39,733 nt of DNA, taken from positions 1-39,733 of the forward strand of contig NZ_VOIR01000014.1 in NCBI RefSeq assembly GCF_007923295.1, given 5' to 3'. Below the pieces are notes generated by a model that saw only the letters and a list, made by a program, of their open reading frames with translations, was not told where the DNA came from and ran no database searches. The position numbers and the translations under genes are program-made. Shown here in pieces: positions 29,286 through 39,733 of the stretch. Positions within the stretch are counted from its first letter, which is position 1, and each line of letters begins with the position of its first letter. Origin of the DNA: Agrococcus sediminis. GTDB lineage: Bacteria > Actinomycetota > Actinomycetes > Actinomycetales > Microbacteriaceae.

Positions 29286-29357
29286 TGGGGTATGGTGTAA
29301 TTGGCAACACGGAGGTTTCTGGTACCTTTGTTCTTGGTTCGAGTCCAGGTACCCCAG
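29286..29357 (+). tRNA. tRNA-Gln (anticodon CTG)
   Basis: The acceptor stem TGGGGTA pairs fully with TACCCCA. The D arm is GTGT/ACAC; the anticodon stem GAGGT/ACCTT holds the loop TTCTGGT with anticodon CTG, reading CAG; the T arm is CTTGG-TTCGAGT-CCAGG, and the discriminator base is G. CCA is not encoded. A terminator follows six bases later. No integrase or att duplication is seen beside it. Confidence 0.95.
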
Positions 29358-29363
29358 CACTTC

Positions 29364-31822: not shown

Positions 31823-32101
31823 ATGGCTGACGCAATGGACGACATGATGAAGCACATGGACGAGATGGCCGACTCCACGCTGGACGAACTGTCGTCCGCG
31901 TCCGGGGACGAGTTCGACCGGAAGTTCCTGGAGATGATGATCAAGCACCACGCGCAGGCGATCGCGACGTCCGAACTCGCTTCGAGCAAGGCCGTGCACG
32001 CAGAGCTGAGAGAGCTGGCTGCGAAGATGCACTCGGATCAGATCGAGGAGAGCGAGCAGCTGCGCAGTTGGCACCAGCAGTGGGGACACGCGCAGGACTG
32101 A
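31823..32101 (+). CDS. Small DUF305 domain protein, without signal peptide
   Basis: The 92-residue protein starts with a Met-rich segment (MADAMDDMMKHMDEM) and holds the DUF305 core: FLEMMIKHHAQAIATSELA, then LRELAAKMHSDQIEESEQLRSWHQQW. DUF305 proteins usually are exported and often lie beside copper or other metal resistance genes; the HH pair and Met residues are candidate ligands. This copy has no signal peptide or membrane anchor, so it would be cytosolic. ATG at 31823 follows AAGGAGG at ideal spacing. It faces the end of the complex-I-like operon. Function in metal binding is inference. Confidence 0.82.
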   Translation: MADAMDDMMKHMDEMADSTLDELSSASGDEFDRKFLEMMIKHHAQAIATSELASSKAVHAELRELAAKMHSDQIEESEQLRSWHQQWGHAQD

Positions 32102-32230: not shown

Positions 32231-33637
32231 TCAGAGCACCGAGAACACGACTCCGGCGGCGACCCCGAGCAGCACGCTGAGGACCGCGCCCGCCATCGCG
32301 GTGCGTGCCGCCCCGACCCTGAGCGGTGCAGTGGGCTGCGCTGGCACCGCATCGGCGGGGCGGTACAGGGGGATGATCCAGCGCAGGTAGTAGTAGAGGC
32401 TGACGACGCTGTTGGCCATCACGGCCACTGCCAACCAGGCCGCGCCGCCCTGCCACGCCGCGGCCGCGACGGTCAGCTTGCCGACGAAGATCGCGGTCGG
32501 CGGCGTGCCGACGAGTCCGAGGAGCGCGACGACCAGGGCCGCAGCGAGCGCCGGGTGTCGCCGCGCGAGTCCGCGGTAGTCTGCCAGGCTGCGGAAGCCG
32601 GGAAGCGCCAGGGTCACAGAGAACGCCGCCGCGTTGGTGACCGCGTATGCCAGCACGTAGAACAGCAGCGCCGGCAGCGCCAGCGCGCTCGTGGGCGCCA
32701 CCGCCACCGGCACCAGCAGGAACCCCGCCTGCCCGACGGTCGACCAGCCCAGCAGCCGGCGAGGGTCGTCCTGGGTGTATGCCGCGAGGTTGCCGAGCGT
32801 CATCGTGACGAGGGCGAGGACGCCGACGAAGGCGGCGGCCGGCGCCGGGTCCGGCAGAGCCGCCACGACCCGGAACGCGGCGAGGAACGCGCCGAGCTTC
32901 GGTACGGTCGTCAGGAACGTCGCGACCAGCCCGTTCGCCCCCTGCGCCGAGTCGGGCACCCAGAAGTGGCCGGGCACCGCGCCCGCCTTGAACATGAGGC
33001 CCGAGAGTACCGCGGCTGCCCCCACCGTCACCGCGCCGGCCGGTGATTCGGCGAGCGCGGCAGGCAGCTCGCCGTACACGCTCGTCCCGGACAGTCCGGT
33101 GAGGAGGGTGACGCCGACCAGCAGCAGGATGCCGAACAGCGCACCGAGCAGGTAGGTCTTGAGCGATGCCTCCGCAGCGCGCGCCGTGCCGGCGAGGCCG
33201 ATCAGGCCATAGAGCGGGATGCTCGCGAGCAGGAAGCCCACGGCGAGCACGAGGAGGTCCCCGGCGCCCGCGATGACCAGCGTCCCCGCGGCACCGAGCA
33301 GGGCGAGCGCGGCGGTCTCGCTCTCCCTGGGGGAGCCGGCGATGCTGCGGCGGCCCGCGAGGAGCACGAGCGCGGTGGCGCCGGAGACCGCGATGCGCGC
33401 CACCTGCGTCGTCGTGTCGACGAGGAAGGTGCCGGCGAACACGGCCTCCGGAGCGGCGGCGAACGTCACGGGCACGACCGTGGCGCTCAGCAGCGCCGTG
33501 GCTGTCGCGATGCCGTACGCCACGCCCTGCCTGGAGCGGGGCAGGTACGAGCCCGTGAGCAGCACGACGAGCGCGCCCGCGATCAGCACGATCTCGGGCA
33601 GCATCGCCAGGACGTCCAAGCCCGCGTCAGACTCCAC
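32231..33637 (-). CDS. NuoN-like proton-conducting membrane subunit of a complex-I-like pump
   Basis: The 468-residue protein has about fourteen membrane segments and the antiporter-like fold of complex I subunit N. The TM7 lysine is kept in MFKAGAVPGHFWVPD, TM8 lysine in TTVPKLGAFL, and the TM12 lysine in GTPPTAIFVGKL. The TM5 glutamate, normally in a GLELLSxPLY motif, is replaced: the sequence reads GFLLASIPLY with L136 at that place. It is the last gene of the H-J-K-L-M-N operon and begins with GTG at 33637, three bases after the nuoM-like stop. The family call is strong; the effect of the lost glutamate is inference. Confidence 0.85.
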   Translation of the reverse strand: MESDAGLDVLAMLPEIVLIAGALVVLLTGSYLPRSRQGVAYGIATATALLSATVVPVTFAAAPEAVFAGTFLVDTTTQVARIAVSGATALVLLAGRRSIAGSPRESETAALALLGAAGTLVIAGAGDLLVLAVGFLLASIPLYGLIGLAGTARAAEASLKTYLLGALFGILLLVGVTLLTGLSGTSVYGELPAALAESPAGAVTVGAAAVLSGLMFKAGAVPGHFWVPDSAQGANGLVATFLTTVPKLGAFLAAFRVVAALPDPAPAAAFVGVLALVTMTLGNLAAYTQDDPRRLLGWSTVGQAGFLLVPVAVAPTSALALPALLFYVLAYAVTNAAAFSVTLALPGFRSLADYRGLARRHPALAAALVVALLGLVGTPPTAIFVGKLTVAAAAWQGGAAWLAVAVMANSVVSLYYYLRWIIPLYRPADAVPAQPTAPLRVGAARTAMAGAVLSVLLGVAAGVVFSVL

Positions 33638-33640
33638 CGG

Positions 33641-35131
33641 TCACCTGCCCACGAGCTCGGCGAGTGTCGCAGCGGCCGGTTCGATCACGTCGAGGATGAC
33701 CCTCGGGAGCACGCCGATGAGGAGCGAGAGCGCCAGCAGGGACCCCGCCGACCACAGCTCGTGCGCCGACAGGTCGCGGAAGCCGATCGAACCACCGCGC
33801 GTCTTCCCGGCGAAGATGCGCTGCAGGGCCAGCAGGAACATCGCGGCGGTGAGCAGGATGCCGAGCAGCGCGACGGCCGTGACGGGGGCGGTGCCGATGG
33901 CGCCCGCGAAGATCTGGAACTCGGCGATGAAGCCCGAGAAGGCCGGGAGGCCCAGTGACGCGAACGCGCCGATCGCGAACAGGGTCGTGAGCCTCGGCGC
34001 GGGAGCCGCGAGTCCTCCGTAGCCCGAGAGGTCGTAGCTGCCCGCGCGATCGCGCAGCACGCCGACGAGCAGGAAGAGCGCCGCGGTGATCAACCCGTGG
34101 CTCACCATCTGCGTCTCCGCTCCGACGATCGCCAACCGCCGGGCATCCTCCGTGCCGCTGTTCACGAGGCCCGCCACGCCGACCGCGAGCACGACGTAGC
34201 CCATGTGGTTGACGGATGTGTAGGCGACCATGCGCTTGAGGTTCTGCTGGGCGAGTGCGACGAGAGCGCCGTACAGCACCGAGATCACGCCGACGATGAT
34301 GATGGGCCACGCCCACGCTCGCCACGCTTCGGGGAGCATCGGCATCGCGATCCGGACGAAGCCGTAGGTGCCCATCTTCAGCAGCACCCCGGCGAGCACC
34401 GCGGACCCGATGGCGGGCGCGTCGGTGTGGGCCGGCGGGAGCCAGGTGTGGAAGGGAACAGTGGGGGTCTTGACGGCCAGCCCGATCAGGATGGCGGCGA
34501 GCACTGCGCCGCCAGCCACCGGCTCGCCCTGCAGCGGCAGCATCTCGGCGAGCTCGACCATGTCGAACGTCGGCGTGTCGGCGGAGACGTACAGCCCGAT
34601 GAAGCCGAGCAGCAGTGCGAGCGACCCGAGGAAGGTGTAGAGGAAGAACTTCAGCGCGGAGCGTCCGGCAGTGGCTCCGTGACCCCAACCGGCGATGACG
34701 AAGTACATGCCGACGATCGACAGGTCGAAGAAGACGAAGAAGAGGATCAGGTCCGCGGCGACGAACACGCCGAGGCTCACGCTCTGCAGGAAGAGGAACA
34801 GTGCCGCCTGGATGCGGGGGCGGTCCTCGTCCCGCAGCGCATAGATGGCGCACGCGAGGAAGACGATCGTCGTCATCGCGACGAGCGGCAGGGACAGGCC
34901 GTCCACCCCGATGTGGTAGCTGGCTCCGACGCCCGGGATCCACTCCAGGCGCTCCTCGAAGGCGAGCCGACCCTCCGGCGGTTCCTCGAAGTTCGCCCAG
35001 ACCACGGCTACCAGCCCGAGATCCGCTGCCGCGACCGCCACCCACGCCCAGCGCGCCACCCGGTCCGAGACGGCCGGCACGGTGAGCAGCAGCGCGGCGG
35101 CGAGCGGCAAGAAGACGATGGCACTCAGCAT
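33641..35131 (-). CDS. NuoM-like proton-conducting membrane subunit of a complex-I-like pump
   Basis: The 496-residue protein has about fourteen membrane segments and clear NuoM motifs: GVDGLSLPLV, then the TM7 lysine in GLAVKTPTVPFHTWLPPAHTD, then LKRMVAYTSVNHMGYV, and the TM12 glutamate in FSGFIAEFQIF. The TM5 glutamate that pairs with the TM7 lysine in typical NuoM is replaced by aspartate, D136 in FFVFFDLSIVGMYFV. ATG at 35131 lies three bases after the stop of the nuoL-like gene, so the genes are translated in series. It would carry one proton path of the membrane arm. Confidence 0.9.
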   Translation of the reverse strand: MLSAIVFLPLAAALLLTVPAVSDRVARWAWVAVAAADLGLVAVVWANFEEPPEGRLAFEERLEWIPGVGASYHIGVDGLSLPLVAMTTIVFLACAIYALRDEDRPRIQAALFLFLQSVSLGVFVAADLILFFVFFDLSIVGMYFVIAGWGHGATAGRSALKFFLYTFLGSLALLLGFIGLYVSADTPTFDMVELAEMLPLQGEPVAGGAVLAAILIGLAVKTPTVPFHTWLPPAHTDAPAIGSAVLAGVLLKMGTYGFVRIAMPMLPEAWRAWAWPIIIVGVISVLYGALVALAQQNLKRMVAYTSVNHMGYVVLAVGVAGLVNSGTEDARRLAIVGAETQMVSHGLITAALFLLVGVLRDRAGSYDLSGYGGLAAPAPRLTTLFAIGAFASLGLPAFSGFIAEFQIFAGAIGTAPVTAVALLGILLTAAMFLLALQRIFAGKTRGGSIGFRDLSAHELWSAGSLLALSLLIGVLPRVILDVIEPAAATLAELVGR

Positions 35132-35134
35132 GGG

Positions 35135-37057
35135 TTACCTTCCGATCACGAGGAGTAGCACGACCACGGCGCCGAGCAGGCCCACAGCCTGCGCGTAGTA
35201 GTGGTGCAGCTGACCGTTCTGCGCGCGCGCGCTGTCGCGACCTGCACGCCAGACCCGTCGGGCGAACCCGTCGACCGACCGATCGACCCCCCGATCGTCG
35301 AGGGAGGCCGCTGCGCGCGCAGTCGTCATCGCCGCCGCCGCCGCGCCATCCGCCGCCGCATCGATCCCGCTGTCGTCGAGGGAAGCCGCCCCCCGCGCGA
35401 TCGCCGCCGCACCCTCCGCCGCCCTTTCCGCCGCCGCGTCGATCCCGGCGTCGTCGAAACGTGCGAGGCGGGCAGCGAGTCGCATGGTGGGCCGCACCAG
35501 GAGCCGATCCCCGGCCAGCTCGAGTCCCAGCCAGCCGGCCGCCCAGCGCGGCTCCGGAAGCCGCCACCGCGTCGAGGCGAGCACCAGCACCAGCGCGATC
35601 GTTCCGGAGGCGATCAGTTCCCAGACGCCCGGCTGGGCAGGCTCCTGACCGAGCGCCCGCGCGACCGCGCCGCTGAGCGGTGGCAGGGCGAGCATCCCGA
35701 GCACCGCGGCGCCGACGGCCAGCGCGGCGACGGGAACCGAATCGAGCGCCCCGGCATGGCGGGTGCCCTGCTCGTGCTCGTCGTAGTGCGTCGCGGTGTG
35801 CGCATCCGCTCTCCGCCAGATCGCGAAGATCAGCTTGGCGGCGTAGACGGCCGACAGCGCGGAGGCAGCGAGACCGACGATGTAGAGCCAGAGCGACTCT
35901 TCGAGCGCAGCGGTGAGCACGGCGTCCTTCGTCGCCCAGAGCGACAGGGGCGGGATGCCCGCGAGCGCGAGCGCAGCGAGGCTTGCCGACAACCCGAGCA
36001 GGCGCCAGCGCCGCGCGGCACCGGCCAGGCCGGAGAGGCGTCGGGTGCCGAGCGCGGTCAGCCAGGCGCCGGCTGCGATGAACAACGCGGCCTTGGTCGA
36101 GGCGTGCGCCACCAGGTGCGCGACACCGCCGCTCTGCGCGCCGAGCCCCGCGGCGAGCACGACGAATCCGAGCTGTGCTGCCGTGGAGGCGGCCAGCAGC
36201 TGCTTCACATCCCGCTGTGCCACAGCGACCGCGCCCAGCAGGAGGGCGGTCACGGCACCGATCCACGCCGCGGCCGTGTCGGCCCATCCGGTCGATTCAA
36301 GCAGCGGCGCGACCCGCAGCAGGAGATAGCCGCCCATCGCGACCATGGCCGCGGAGTGCAGCAGCGCGCTGACCGGGCTCGGACCGTCCATGGCTCGGGA
36401 GAGCCAGAACGAGAAGGGCAGCTGCGCGGCCTTGCCGAGCGCCGCGACCAGCAGACCGGCGGCCGCGGCGTCGCGCCATCCTGCCGTCGCGTCCGTGAGC
36501 TCGGCGAGTCCGAGGCCCGCGCCCCCGCCAAGCGCAGCCCCCGCCGCCGCGTAGAGCCCGAGGTCCCCGGCACGGGTGGTGATGAACGCCGTGGTGCCGC
36601 TCGCCACCCGGTGCTCGTCCCGCCACCAGAATCCGATCAGCGCGAAGGAGGTGGCGCCCATGACCTCCCAGGCGAACAGCAGCGTCACGAGGTTCCCGGC
36701 GACCGCCGTGAGCAGTGCGGCGGCCGCGAAGATCAGCATCAGGCCGTGGAACCGAGCGCGCCCCTCCCGGATGTCGCCGGCCGCGAAGATCAGCACCAAG
36801 AGCGTCACCGCGGCGACCGTCGGCAGCATGATGGCGGAGAGCCCGTCGACGCGCAGGTCGAACCCGGCTCCGGCGAGGAACGGCACGGCGGCCGCGGGCT
36901 GGGCTGTCGCGACCACGACCGCGAGCGCGAGGCCGGCCGTGGCGACTCCGATCGCGACGACTCCTGCCACGCGCTCGACCCGAGGCAGGAGGCACAGCAG
37001 CGCGCCAGTCGTCGCGGGCAGGAGCACCAGGAGCCAGAGCGCGATGGTCGCGCTCAT
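35135..37057 (-). CDS. NuoL-like proton-conducting membrane subunit with triple C-terminal repeat
   Basis: The 640-residue protein has the NuoL antiporter fold: TM5 glutamate E131 in LLFAWEVMGATSF, TM7 lysine K209 in LGKAAQLPFSFW, AMDGPSPVSALLHSAAMVA, the TM11 region HLVAHASTKAALF, and GIPPLSLWATKDAVL. The loop near GKAAQ reads FSFWLSRAMDG rather than the usual LHVWLPDAMEG. The C-terminal part holds three 26-residue repeats (about 534-611) that start F/L-D-D-x-G-I/V-D, before a last membrane helix. This lies where normal NuoL carries the long lateral helix and the final transmembrane helix. ATG at 37057; 19 bases separate it from the nuoK-like gene. Confidence 0.88.
   Translation of the reverse strand: MSATIALWLLVLLPATTGALLCLLPRVERVAGVVAIGVATAGLALAVVVATAQPAAAVPFLAGAGFDLRVDGLSAIMLPTVAAVTLLVLIFAAGDIREGRARFHGLMLIFAAAALLTAVAGNLVTLLFAWEVMGATSFALIGFWWRDEHRVASGTTAFITTRAGDLGLYAAAGAALGGGAGLGLAELTDATAGWRDAAAAGLLVAALGKAAQLPFSFWLSRAMDGPSPVSALLHSAAMVAMGGYLLLRVAPLLESTGWADTAAAWIGAVTALLLGAVAVAQRDVKQLLAASTAAQLGFVVLAAGLGAQSGGVAHLVAHASTKAALFIAAGAWLTALGTRRLSGLAGAARRWRLLGLSASLAALALAGIPPLSLWATKDAVLTAALEESLWLYIVGLAASALSAVYAAKLIFAIWRRADAHTATHYDEHEQGTRHAGALDSVPVAALAVGAAVLGMLALPPLSGAVARALGQEPAQPGVWELIASGTIALVLVLASTRWRLPEPRWAAGWLGLELAGDRLLVRPTMRLAARLARFDDAGIDAAAERAAEGAAAIARGAASLDDSGIDAAADGAAAAAMTTARAAASLDDRGVDRSVDGFARRVWRAGRDSARAQNGQLHHYYAQAVGLLGAVVVLLLVIGR
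35225..35458 (-). repeat. Threefold 78-bp (26-residue) repeat inside the nuoL-like gene
   Basis: Three consecutive 26-residue units start FDDAGIDAAA, LDDSGIDAAA and LDDRGVDRSV. The first two end in AAS. The motif D-x-G-I/V-D-x-x-x-D/E-G/R resembles the single C-terminal motif found near the end of many NuoL proteins. Confidence 0.8.
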
Positions 37058-37076
37058 CGCTCGACCCCGGGACCGG

Positions 37077-37379
37077 TCATCGCTTGAGCTCCGACGCGGA
37101 ATCGGTCATGTCGCTGCCACGCGCACGATGCACGAGCGTCGCGACTGCGAACCCCATGGCCATCTCGACCGTCATCGCGGCGATCACGACGAGCAGCAGC
37201 ACCTGCCCGGTCGGCTCCGGCGAGAGGAACCACCAGAACGCGCCCGCGGCGAGGATGACACCGTTCAGCATCAGCTCGAGGCCCATCATCACCATCACCA
37301 CGACCTGCTGCGAGATCGCCCCGTACAGGCCCACGCTGAACAGCGCAGCCGCGATCAGCAGCACCGCTTCGAGGGTCAT
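37077..37379 (-). CDS. NuoK-like membrane subunit of a complex-I-like pump
   Basis: The 100-residue protein has three membrane segments and keeps both glutamates of NuoK: E35 in MMGLELMLNG and E72 in AMTVEMAMGF, at the same places as E36 and E72 of the E. coli protein. These form part of the proton path through the membrane arm. ATG at 37379 overlaps the nuoJ-like stop as ATGA, and a short hydrophilic tail (RARGSDMTDSASELKR) ends the protein. Confidence 0.88.
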   Translation of the reverse strand: MTLEAVLLIAAALFSVGLYGAISQQVVVMVMMGLELMLNGVILAAGAFWWFLSPEPTGQVLLLVVIAAMTVEMAMGFAVATLVHRARGSDMTDSASELKR

Positions 37380-37945
37380 CGGCCCACACCCCCCGGCTGC
37401 GGATCGTCGGCTGCGGCACGCTCGAGGTCGTCGCCGTAGCGGTCGTACCGGCCGCGGTGCAGGCTGAGGCTGACGCCCGCGACGATGGTCGCCACCATCA
37501 CCGGGCTCAGCACGATCATCGCGAGCATCTTCGGCTCCATGAGTGCCATGCCGAGCGCCACGGTGACGTCCTCTGTCGGGGCAGGACGGCCGGAGGGCCA
37601 CGGGGTCAGCAGGATGCCGGCCGCGAGCAGCGCGAAGGTGACGAGCGCGGTGACGAGTGACAGCCGCTTGTCGTGCACCATGCTCATCGGCATCAGCGCC
37701 GGGTTCATCCCCATGAACATGATCATGTAGACGGCCATGACCGCCATCTCCATCACCATCATCAGGATGGTGATGACGCCGAGGTACGCCTGGTCGAGCA
37801 GCAGCAGCTGCAGGCCGACCGCCACGAACGAAATGGCCAGCGCGTAGGTCGCGCGCGCCATCGAGTTCACCCAGAACACCGCGGCCCCGGAGAGCACGGC
37901 TGTCGCGCCGAGCACCCAGAAGAAGACTTCGCCGATCAGAGTCAT
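37376..37945 (-). CDS. NuoJ-like membrane subunit, methionine-rich
   Basis: The 189-residue protein has five membrane segments in the NuoJ pattern, with LDQAYLGVITILMMVMEMAV at the third segment where NuoJ has its pi-bulge helix. An unusual stretch around residues 62-89 holds twelve methionines in 28 residues (MMVMEMAVM, YMIMFMGM, LMPMSM). The usual glycine/tyrosine VGAIAVLF-type core is changed, so this is a divergent NuoJ. Methionine clusters can bind Cu(I), which would fit the metal-binding proteins at both ends of the module, but this is inference. ATG at 37945 overlaps the nuoH-like stop by four bases. Confidence 0.78.
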   Translation of the reverse strand: MTLIGEVFFWVLGATAVLSGAAVFWVNSMARATYALAISFVAVGLQLLLLDQAYLGVITILMMVMEMAVMAVYMIMFMGMNPALMPMSMVHDKRLSLVTALVTFALLAAGILLTPWPSGRPAPTEDVTVALGMALMEPKMLAMIVLSPVMVATIVAGVSLSLHRGRYDRYGDDLERAAADDPQPGGVGR

Positions 37946-38877
37946 CGGTTCACCATCACCAGTGCGATCAGCAGATCCTGCAGCATGCCGGCGGGGATCA
38001 GCAGCATCCAGCCGACCTCCATGAACTTCTCGGGCCGTATGAGCGGCACCTTGCGGCGGACCCAGACGAACGCGGCGAGCACGACCACGGTCTTCAGCAG
38101 GGACCAGGCCCATGCCGGCAGCACCGCGCCGGACCCTCCGCCCAGGAACAGCGGCACCGCGAACGCCGCACCGGCGACGAGCACTCCATACCGGCCGGCG
38201 AAGAAGACCAGCCGGTCGACGCCCGACAGCTCCGCGGCGACACCGCCGGCGATGTCGGCTCCGAGCGATGAGCCGAACGGGCCCCACACGGAGAACGCGA
38301 CCACTCCGATCGAGTAGATCAGGAACGCCACCGGCATCCACACGATGAACCAGAGCTCCGACTGCGCCGCCACGATGTCGCCCACATTCAGGCTCTCGGA
38401 GGCGATCGCCGTGGCGATGAGGGCGAACATCAGCGGCAGCTCGTACGCGACCGCCAGCGCGAGGAAGCGGTATCCGCCGACCAGCGCGTGCACGGAGTTG
38501 CCACCCCAGCCGACGAGCCAGACCAGCGCCCAGACGAGCGCATCCATCGCGTTGAACCAGACCAGACCCGCCTCGAAGTCGAACAGCGTCCATTCGCCGA
38601 ACGGGACGACGGTGATCTTCAGCAGTGCGGCGACGAGCATCCCGGCACCGCCGATGCGCCACAGCAGCGAGTCGGCTGCCACGGTCGACCGTCGGCGCTG
38701 TCGGAGCAGGCGTGCCGTCTCAGCGGCAGGCCAGCGCAGCGATGCGGCGGCAGATCCGCCCTGCGCCCGTGCAGCCAGCATCCCGTCGAGAGCCACCGCG
38801 ATCATGACCAGCACGGCGAGCAGCAGGGCACCCACGATCGCCCAGGAGGGGTCCACCTCGACCACGGGGTCACTCAT
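37942..38877 (-). CDS. NuoH-like membrane subunit, divergent
   Basis: The 311-residue protein has about eight membrane segments. NuoH features are GGYRFLALAVAYELPLMFALI with E146 and a later P-F-x...ELSG region. The long acidic quinone-side loop of typical NuoH (PFDLPEAE-E-L-x-G-Y-x-x-EYSG) is reduced to PFGSSLGAD and following residues, with only the last glutamate kept (E216, ELSG), and the GEY motif reads GRY. The N-terminal Q-x-R-x-GP motif is also missing (LDGMLAARAQGG). ATG at 38877 overlaps the upstream gene's stop by eight bases. NuoH normally joins the quinone site to the membrane arm, so these losses are notable. Confidence 0.82.
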   Translation of the reverse strand: MSDPVVEVDPSWAIVGALLLAVLVMIAVALDGMLAARAQGGSAAASLRWPAAETARLLRQRRRSTVAADSLLWRIGGAGMLVAALLKITVVPFGEWTLFDFEAGLVWFNAMDALVWALVWLVGWGGNSVHALVGGYRFLALAVAYELPLMFALIATAIASESLNVGDIVAAQSELWFIVWMPVAFLIYSIGVVAFSVWGPFGSSLGADIAGGVAAELSGVDRLVFFAGRYGVLVAGAAFAVPLFLGGGSGAVLPAWAWSLLKTVVVLAAFVWVRRKVPLIRPEKFMEVGWMLLIPAGMLQDLLIALVMVNR

Positions 38878-39733
38878 GATGGCCCCCCCGCTCTGCGGCG
38901 AGGGACGACAGACCGAGACTGGCGACGACGAGCCGTGCGGCAGCGAGGTCAAGGCCGGTGACGAGCTGCGGCAGATCAGCGATGAGGCGACTCGCATCCC
39001 GTCGTTCCCCGGACGATCCGTCGTTCGCGTCGCGCGCCGCGCCCAGCATGGCGAGCAGCCGATCGAAGACGCTGCCCGCTTGCGCCGCAACGAGGTGCTG
39101 GGCGAGCGCGGGGTCCTCCACGACGCCCAAGCGCCCCAAAGACCAGCGGAGCAGGGAGCGGCGGACGCGACGCTCGAGTCGGTCCAGGCCGTGCTGTGCC
39201 GCCGCGGTGTCGCCGCGCAGCAGCGCGCCGCGGAGCCGGCGCGCGTCGGCAGCGAGGCCCGACGCCCCCGCGAGCGCGAGCAGCGCGGCCGCGTCGTCGC
39301 ATCGTCGAGCGGCGGCTTCCCGTCCGCCCGGCTCGACAAATCCATGCCACGCATCGTCGAGCCCCCGGGCCCGCGCACGCGTGATGACGTCGCCGTTCAG
39401 CGCGCAGTGCAGCACGAGGCCCGGCGGCCAGTAGGGCAGCACCGGACCCAGTTGCACGGCCAGCGTGTCCATCTCCAGTCCATCGCGGTCCGCAGCCCCG
39501 CCCGCCAGCGGGATGCCCGCTGGCGCCATGTCCATGCCGGAGTGGTCCATGCCGGAGTGGTCCGTGCCGGAGTGGTCCGTGCCGGTGTGGTCCATCTGGC
39601 TGTGGTCCGTGCCGGTGTGGTCCATCTGGCTGTGGTCCGTGCCGGTGTGGTCCATCTGGCTGTGGTCCGTGCCGGTGTGGTCCATCTGGCTGTGGTCCGT
39701 GCCGGTGTGGTCCATCTGGCTGTGGTCCGTGCC
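38870..39733 (-). CDS. NuoD-like-start protein with MDHTGTDHSQ repeats (5' end outside window)
   Basis: The frame is still open at the right edge. It begins in the window with GTDHSQ, followed by four exact MDHTGTDHSQ decapeptides and shorter DHS-GM units, then about 215 residues. The segment DTLAVQLGPVLPYWPPG, followed by LVLHCALNGDVITRARA, parallels the start of NuoD (N-M-G-P-Q-H-P-S-T-H-G-V-L-R-L, then LDGE), but GPQHPSTHG reads GPVLPYWPPG, so the quinone-site His is lost. The rest is helical with many Ala, Arg and Leu and no Fe-S or Ni-Fe motif. It overlaps the nuoH-like gene by eight bases. His/Asp/Met repeats of this type bind copper in other proteins. The NuoD link is by eye only. Confidence 0.6.
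   Translation of the reverse strand, partial: GTDHSQMDHTGTDHSQMDHTGTDHSQMDHTGTDHSQMDHTGTDHSQMDHTGTDHSGTDHSGMDHSGMDMAPAGIPLAGGAADRDGLEMDTLAVQLGPVLPYWPPGLVLHCALNGDVITRARARGLDDAWHGFVEPGGREAAARRCDDAAALLALAGASGLAADARRLRGALLRGDTAAAQHGLDRLERRVRRSLLRWSLGRLGVVEDPALAQHLVAAQAGSVFDRLLAMLGAARDANDGSSGERRDASRLIADLPQLVTGLDLAAARLVVASLGLSSLAAERGGHHE
39521..39733 (-). repeat. 30-bp tandem repeat array coding for MDHTGTDHSQ
   Basis: Exact 30-base units start at 39591, 39621, 39651, 39681 and 39711 (cut by the window edge). Before them (39521-39590) are degenerate 15-base half units. All copies keep the reading frame, so length changes by slippage would add or remove ten residues each time. Confidence 0.9.

Follow-up and report, generated by a model that had tools for sequence, protein, structure and literature searches.

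In respiratory complex I, the NuoB/NuoD module drives the membrane subunits NuoH, NuoA, NuoJ and NuoK, which set off the proton paths in NuoN, NuoM and NuoL; the coupling of electron transfer to pumping is still debated. Canonical NuoB carries four cysteines for cluster N2, in its ACC, SCAN and PGCPP motifs, and the second histidine of the GPxHPxxHG motif is the quinone histidine of NuoD. A NuoL-type subunit is re-used with a non-redox partner in the DabAB bicarbonate pumps; and, among copper transporters, CusB and the P1B ATPases bear heavy-metal-binding domains (HMBD). Here we analyse a complex I-like operon of the actinomycete Agrococcus sediminis, which lies at the end of a 39,733-nucleotide stretch of DNA (the window: positions 1-39733 of contig NZ_VOIR01000014.1, here C14, in a genome of 2.74 Mb that is 99.97% complete), and which appears to encode a fused NuoB-like/metal-binding/NuoD-like subunit in place of the redox module. 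That the system is redox-free, and that it is linked to copper, are both well supported; we propose that it may export metal.

An operon with the printed order nuoA, hypothetical protein, nuoH, J, K, L, M, N is already in the literature, as the 'partial NDH-1 operon' of Salinispora, Streptomyces and Kocuria (PMC3314556, Penn and Jensen 2012; PMC4018334, Ian 2014; PMC6002675, Sun 2018; PMC6676996). The passages that treat it read it as a proton or sodium pump for adaptation to sea water or osmotic conditions, and give no explanation of the hypothetical protein. The word 'copper' is absent from the main text of PMC3314556; a passage of PMC6676996 describes the operon in a strain that came from copper-rich mine fluid, where it is again interpreted as osmotic, and in one of PMC6002675 copD is listed with the further genes acquired along with the operon. 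Our searches of an open-access library turned up no copper reading of the operon.

Results

On the minus strand of the window lie six genes for membrane subunits, NuoH-like (37942-38877; Pfam NADHdh, 7e-42), NuoJ-like (37376-37945; Oxidored_q3, 1.3e-9), NuoK-like (37077-37379; matched by an NCBIfam profile at 8e-17 and by none in Pfam), and the antiporter subunits NuoL-like (35135-37057), NuoM-like (33641-35131) and NuoN-like (32231-33637), the last three matching Proton_antipo_M at 1.2e-47 to 1e-62. They are preceded by a gene (38870-39733) which, judged by profile, relatives and a structural model, encodes the C-terminal part of a fused subunit, with a His/Asp/Met linker followed by a NuoD-like domain. 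The spacing is tight, as the initial annotation had noted, with overlaps of 8 (first gene and NuoH), 4 and 4 bases and gaps of 19, 3 and 3. The His/Asp/Met repeat that it had also reported has a period of 15 bases (39530-39733), with M/TDHSG- and TDHSQMDHTG-type units forming a linker of metal-binding type.

The window ends inside this repeat at a run of 91 N (2735-2825 in our locus L009; loci are numbered L and genomes G), past which the repeat goes on and the frame reaches back to a GTG overlapping the end of a NuoA gene. The N-terminal NuoB-like domain and NuoA lie in this region, at about C14:39825-40822, so that the order of the full operon is NuoA-[NuoB-like, His/Asp/Met linker, NuoD-like fusion]-H-J-K-L-M-N. 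From relatives without an N gap we infer that the first gene encodes one fused subunit. The initial annotation had seen no NuoB and had paired a NuoD-like first gene, lacking the quinone histidines, with separate metal-binding partners; this was right for the window and for the histidines, but a NuoB-like domain, preceded by NuoA, lies past the gap, and the metal-binding part belongs to the fused subunit itself. A normal set of NuoB to NuoG and NuoI genes, which would have pointed to ordinary complex I, was not found directly upstream.

With a profile of 14 fusions, NuoB chains were the top PDB matches (5e-5), over the SPRQAD..MIVAG..QMPEPR region, and 40 B parts aligned with canonical NuoB in hhalign at a probability of 96 (3e-9, 46 columns). 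Yet the N2 ligands have gone: none of 41 fusions (42 pieces) has a CC pair or a motif of SCAN or PGCPP type, and the usual single cysteine (VVCG) stands at a non-ligand place. The Pfam 49 kDa (NuoD) model was above its cut-off of 24 bits in six of the eight fusions scanned, at up to 7e-16, the C-terminal parts of Halomonas and of a Rubrobacter/Sulfitobacter/L099 clade scoring 30 to 58; five rows of this clade, in which the linker contains HMBD, aligned with canonical NuoD at a probability of 98.7 (3e-16, 301 columns). Of the GPxHPxxHG motif, the second histidine is lost in 41/41 D domains and the first in 40/41, being left only in L090. The fusion of the window itself carries the gap, and its visible parts agree with the loss of the N2 motifs. 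A model of a Mycolicibacterium fusion (mean predicted local distance difference test 71, predicted template-modelling score 0.51) was compared with the PDB in Foldseek, and matched chains of NuoB and NuoD best (E 2e-3).

The linker between the two domains differs in length among relatives, and in kind among clades. MDH-, MDM- or GHEG-type repeats are found in 13 of the 14 rows of the window's clade, L034 being counted as without them; L087 has a GGHGGH stretch instead of such repeats. The second clade has a GMMGG...GRPMAM-type linker and the third (Rubrobacter, Sulfitobacter) one to five Pfam HMBD (PF19335), present in five of the eight fusions scanned. A start codon lies 46 residues ahead of a PADAD-type motif in 20 of 21 loci (44 in L033), L026 and L036 being the same locus. 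In L034 (G097:C1, 4007-8462) we observed a fusion without the metal linker and a NuoH-like gene, with no J to N, which could be a relic or a minimal form.

Beyond the operon, the A. sediminis genome has no match to PF00346 (NuoD) or PF01512 (NuoF), while among 14 control genomes PF01512 was positive in nine and PF00346 in 11. Canonical NuoD is encoded elsewhere in five of 16 operon genomes (Nocardioides, Mycolicibacterium); two have a distant match only and nine have none. Within 13 system loci, of about 5-20 kb each, nothing matched E. coli NuoCD, E, F, G or I. The redox input, whose quinone side was first suggested to be changed or absent, is lost more fully than the window showed: NuoD and NuoF, the N2 motifs and the quinone histidines are all missing.

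Two known classes were considered for the operon and rejected. Ordinary complex I is ruled out by the missing NuoD/NuoF in the genome and the missing ligands in the fusions, and an Mrp antiporter by the profiles, by the presence of NuoH, NuoJ and NuoA and by a NuoK that scores far above the MrpC-type model. As to the membrane-bound [NiFe] hydrogenase group, whose large subunit has NiFe CxxC pairs, no CxxC is found in 41/41 NuoD-like domains, CPxC occurring just in the HMBD linkers.

The residues that make up the proton paths of NuoK, L, M and N are, by comparison with the E. coli subunits, mostly retained. This comparison leaves out NuoK of L045, NuoJ of L029, NuoM of L089, L098 and L122 (mis-extracted) and the locus L111; for J of L029 and K of L045, the right sequences entered a separate comparison of 19 loci (as G075, MycVan). 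The key charges of K and L, already picked out in the window, hold throughout the set: NuoK E36 is kept in 47/47 and E72 in 46/47 (one Asp), and NuoL E144, K229, K342 and K399 in 47/47 each. Also kept are NuoA E81 (47/47), NuoM K234 and K265 (46/46) and E407 (45/46), and NuoN K247 (46/46) and K395 (45/46), while NuoM E144 has become Asp in 41/46 and no Glu is left at NuoN E133 in 46/46 (one Asp). The window's own subunits follow this pattern, with the E36/E72 equivalents in NuoK, where additional Met stand nearby, all four residues in NuoL, K234, K265 and E407 in NuoM with E144 changed to Asp, and K217, K247 and K395 in NuoN with E133 changed to Leu.

The quinone loop of NuoH, in contrast, has reduced acids, in the window as in its relatives. 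E216 is changed in 48/48 (13 Asp) and E218 is lost, and in the comparison of 19 loci the E. coli acids E216/E218 are missing from 19/19; however, E220 is Asp in 19/19 and E228 is Glu in 17/19, and so the acidic loop, which the initial annotation had taken to be lacking, is better described as weakened.

The NuoJ of the window was rightly called methionine-rich (19 of 189 residues, with a Met-rich transmembrane helix 3, TM3, at positions 62-89), and this is shared by the whole system. Eleven NuoJ columns are Met in 47/47 system rows and in 0/7 canonical ones, and the E. coli Y59 position is Met in 47/47; NuoK has four Met columns (43-47/47 vs 0/7), NuoA three (47/47 vs 0, 0 and 1 of 5) and NuoM one (46/47 vs 1/8). 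Mean Met content is 9.4% in NuoJ against 2.9% in canonical rows, 9.0 against 4.9 in NuoK and 4.6 against 3.7 in NuoA, and is below canonical in H, L, M and N, these averages taking in some mis-extracted rows (K of L045; J of L029; M of L089, L098 and L122) and not L111. On these alignments, the gain of Met is almost confined to the three subunits that join the quinone side to the pumps in complex I. Five TM3 Met of NuoJ fall on one 80-degree arc, and clustering over all seven was weak when tested (p 0.045). His-rich C-terminal tails of NuoJ were seen in L103, L110, L112, L101 and L107 (Roseivivax, Acuticoccus, Halomonas, Arthrobacter, Pseudarthrobacter).

We located three copper markers, DUF305/CopM, multicopper oxidase (PF07732) and the copper P-type ATPase (TIGR01511 over cut-off), in 24 genomes with the operon or its relic, taking the expectation from marker coverage. 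At least one marker lies within 15 kb of the operon in 17/24 genomes against 1.39 expected, and within 5 kb in 14/24 against 0.72, the P-values treating as independent 24 genomes that are not so. Within 15 kb, DUF305 alone was found in 13/24 (0.55 expected), multicopper oxidase in 8/24 (0.48) and the copper ATPase in 5/24 (0.64). In five of these genomes the canonical nuo operons were set against the same marker lists, and their surroundings of 15 kb contain none. The plasmid counts lack a background control: of the 17 opened loci, 14 carry DUF305 or a gene annotated for metal in flanks of 9 to 14 kb (shorter at record ends), and 11 carry one that is named for copper or is a multicopper oxidase, CueR or CusA/CzcA; neighbours include CueR, a heavy-metal P-type ATPase, multicopper oxidase, CopB and CusA/CzcA. 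In G097, genes read as CopZ- and CsoR-like precede a CopA-type ATPase (TIGR01511, 500 bits; cut-off 397), which is followed immediately by the fusion and the NuoH-like gene. The suggestion of a tie to copper, made from the window, is supported.

The operon is patchily distributed. A NuoH query matched 10 of 199 genomes of the same family, A. sediminis included, nine having the operon and G097 just the fusion and the NuoH-like gene; Agrococcus sp. KRD186 (G049) has a 90%-identical NuoH. The order A, fusion, H, J, K, L, M, N is found in 11 of 12 named loci, from Agrococcus, Nocardioides (two metagenome-assembled genomes, one uncultured), Cryobacterium, Mycolicibacterium and an actinomycete metagenome-assembled genome, L040 ending at a contig end. 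Across 396 genomes of the phylum, NuoH exceeded 300 bits in four, A. sediminis included; 13 of 14 other phylum loci that were opened (157-481 bits) carry the same operon, L089 and L090 being cut by contig ends, and four further genomes (G553, G586, G453 and G517) score 169-188 bits. The locus L098 (G247:C26) was rejected as a member, its NuoH score being akin but its layout different: NuoA, H, J, K, L and N-type genes stand divergent from NuoB, CD and I, an unusual layout of complex I.

Plasmid records were matched by NuoJ (17) and by NuoH (178, many at low identity). We opened 12 of the former and 18 of the latter (17 system loci and L122 as a canonical control). The 17 system loci span Actinomycetota, Alphaproteobacteria (Roseivivax, Acuticoccus, Sulfitobacter) and Gammaproteobacteria (Halomonas); L107 has an insertion sequence within the fusion, and in L111 the annotation covers just A and M, with NuoH and NuoJ each matched in two pieces. 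In a tree of NuoH (41 system and eight canonical rows) the two sets split at 100/100 support, with three system subclades; the NuoM tree was uninformative, two of its eight canonical rows not being true NuoM. Near-copies or poorly extracted rows (L029, L038, L039, L042, L043, L102, L109) were left out of both trees. Because the patchy presence in the family and the plasmid copies both fit acquisition, the operon may well be, as the initial annotation supposed, an acquired block, and the gene order that it proposed to look for elsewhere is indeed found in other Actinomycetota and on plasmids.

The DUF305/CopM-like small protein that had been noted beside the operon (31823-32101, plus strand) does adjoin it, although it amounts to just half a domain (profile 70-150); the same genome has four DUF305 matches elsewhere, two of full length. 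A tRNA-Gln (CTG) gene lies at 29286-29358, about 2.9 kb from the operon end. Two more Proton_antipo_M proteins, perhaps of an Mrp-type antiporter, are encoded at G000:C14:115047-119214. Upstream of NuoA in both Agrococcus genomes (L009 4055-13700, L036 1-7920) is a cluster of aromatic-catabolism type, with dioxygenase, semialdehyde dehydrogenase and aldolase as read from translations.

Discussion

We think it somewhat probable that A, H, J to N and the NuoB-like/metal-binding/NuoD-like fusion together form a redox-free relative of complex I, which exports metal by means of the proton motive force (pmf). A fuller version can be put forward tentatively, as a real possibility short of our belief: that a complex I arm became a multi-subunit pmf-driven Cu(I)/Ag(I) pump, with a methionine path for the E-channel and a metal-collecting subunit for NuoB/NuoD, which spread by plasmids across at least two phyla and was misread as a partial respiratory operon. 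The substrate, the path, the docking and the direction of metal movement are what we infer as follows. The fusion would dock on H/A/J as NuoB and NuoD do, and would pick up cytosolic Cu(I) (alternatively Ag(I) or another soft metal of this kind); the metal could then move along the Met-lined J/K/A region, which is the proton 'E-channel' of complex I, while protons entering via L, M and N would drive it out through J/K/A. Such a pmf-driven exporter may act beside P-type ATPases and multicopper oxidases. The quinone drive is gone; the arm with most of its acids and lysines, the metal ligands of the subunit on the cytosolic side and the Met-lined J/K/A are left, and a proton-in/metal-out exchange is the simplest account.

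Several points weigh against this proposal. Binding and transport of metal by the complex are suggested by sequence and genomic context; His/Met stretches and HMBD can bind several metals, and HMBD is limited to one clade, other than that of the window. For the NuoD-like part, hhalign over the whole set gave a probability of just 5.5, the Pfam NuoB and NuoD models matched 0/14 fusion rows on the window's side of the tree, and Foldseek with the fusion model gave no E at or below 1e-3; taken by itself, the NuoD homology of the window's clade is not significant, and its assignment leans on the HMBD clade and the fold match. In the membrane arm, NuoN K217 is kept in just 39/46 (seven Glu) and NuoH E157 in just 35/48, and the Met face of TM3, which was examined post hoc, is weakly non-random. 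No copper marker lies within 15 kb in G139, G201, G202, G203, G561, G375 and G490, of which G202 and G203 have unplaced operon contigs, scored as misses, whose flanks of about 8 kb show none; and the plasmid loci L100, L107 and L109 have no metal gene or DUF305 in the flank.

The fusion might instead sense copper and gate a flow of H+ or Na+, adjusting pH or potential under metal stress, with metal not being transported at all. Such a copper-gated channel or antiporter would fit the retention of most pump residues, the metal-binding sequence that stands where the redox module would be and the copper neighbours; it leaves unexplained, however, why Met is invariant along the membrane helices of NuoJ, NuoK and NuoA, and we consider it unlikely. 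Were the pmf used to bring Cu(I) in, it would supply cuproenzymes encoded nearby, and multicopper oxidases, cupredoxins and cytochrome-assembly genes do lie near several loci. We regard such import as improbable, as many neighbours are of detoxification type (metal-sensitive regulators or CueR, heavy-metal P-type ATPases, CopB, CusA/CzcA) and the linker, by analogy with NuoB/NuoD, is predicted to be on the cytosolic side.

The published reading, a proton or sodium pump for marine or osmotic adaptation, draws on comparative genomics, as set out in the passages cited above, and on membrane subunits that are kept. It is, in our view, no less doubtful than import: there is no visible energy input, the metal-binding domains and copper neighbours speak against it, and the operon is found also in isolates from soil, sputum and sediment and, according to the passage in PMC6676996, in the strain from copper-rich mine fluid. 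It is very improbable that the operon provides a spare membrane arm, still redox-active, docking to the resident complex I or to other Fe-S proteins, since a canonical NuoD, found elsewhere in 5/16 genomes tested, is absent in 9/16 and just distant in 2/16, and the operon supplies its own B/D-type subunit without ligands. Finally, a decaying relic of a complex I operon, as the remnant in G097 and the broken or piecemeal-annotated plasmid copies (L107, L111) might suggest, is barely credible when order, intact frames and invariant residues are conserved in most loci across two phyla.

A natural complex in which the arm is complete, down to its coupling subunits (A, J, K and H), but quinone and Fe-S chemistry are missing would reveal what this arm is capable of by itself and what its driving force is. 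If metal is moved, this would be a new class of copper transporter, carried on plasmids and concealed behind annotations as 'NADH-quinone oxidoreductase', and the interpretation as 'marine adaptation', given in several papers, would have to be revised.

Comparison with known systems

With respiratory complex I the system shares homologous A, H, J, K, L, M and N, and a fusion apparently derived from NuoB and NuoD. It differs in having no N2 cysteine motifs, no quinone histidine and no genomic NuoD/NuoF, in its reduced NuoH loop, in the loss of NuoN E133 and the change of NuoJ Y59 to Met, and in its Met-rich J/K/A and metal-binding-type linker. The 'partial NDH-1 operon' has the same order, the match being by the gene order printed in the passages cited. 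The gene order is already in print; what is new, as far as we have seen, is the B-metal-D fusion, the pattern of Met, the association with copper and the interpretation as redox-free.

The Mrp cation/proton antiporters share antiporter-type subunits and the lack of redox chemistry, whereas the present system has NuoH, NuoJ, NuoA and a B/D fusion, and its best profiles are Nuo rather than Mrp. The HMBD-bearing copper transporters have in common with it the HMBD of one system clade and the His/Met-rich linkers, but here there is no resistance-nodulation-division or ATPase part, and the HMBD is set inside a complex I-type subunit. From DabAB the system is set apart by its seven membrane subunits and an unrelated partner. 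We place it as a variant within the complex I superfamily, because its function is deduced; it would be a kind of its own if it were shown to be a metal pump.

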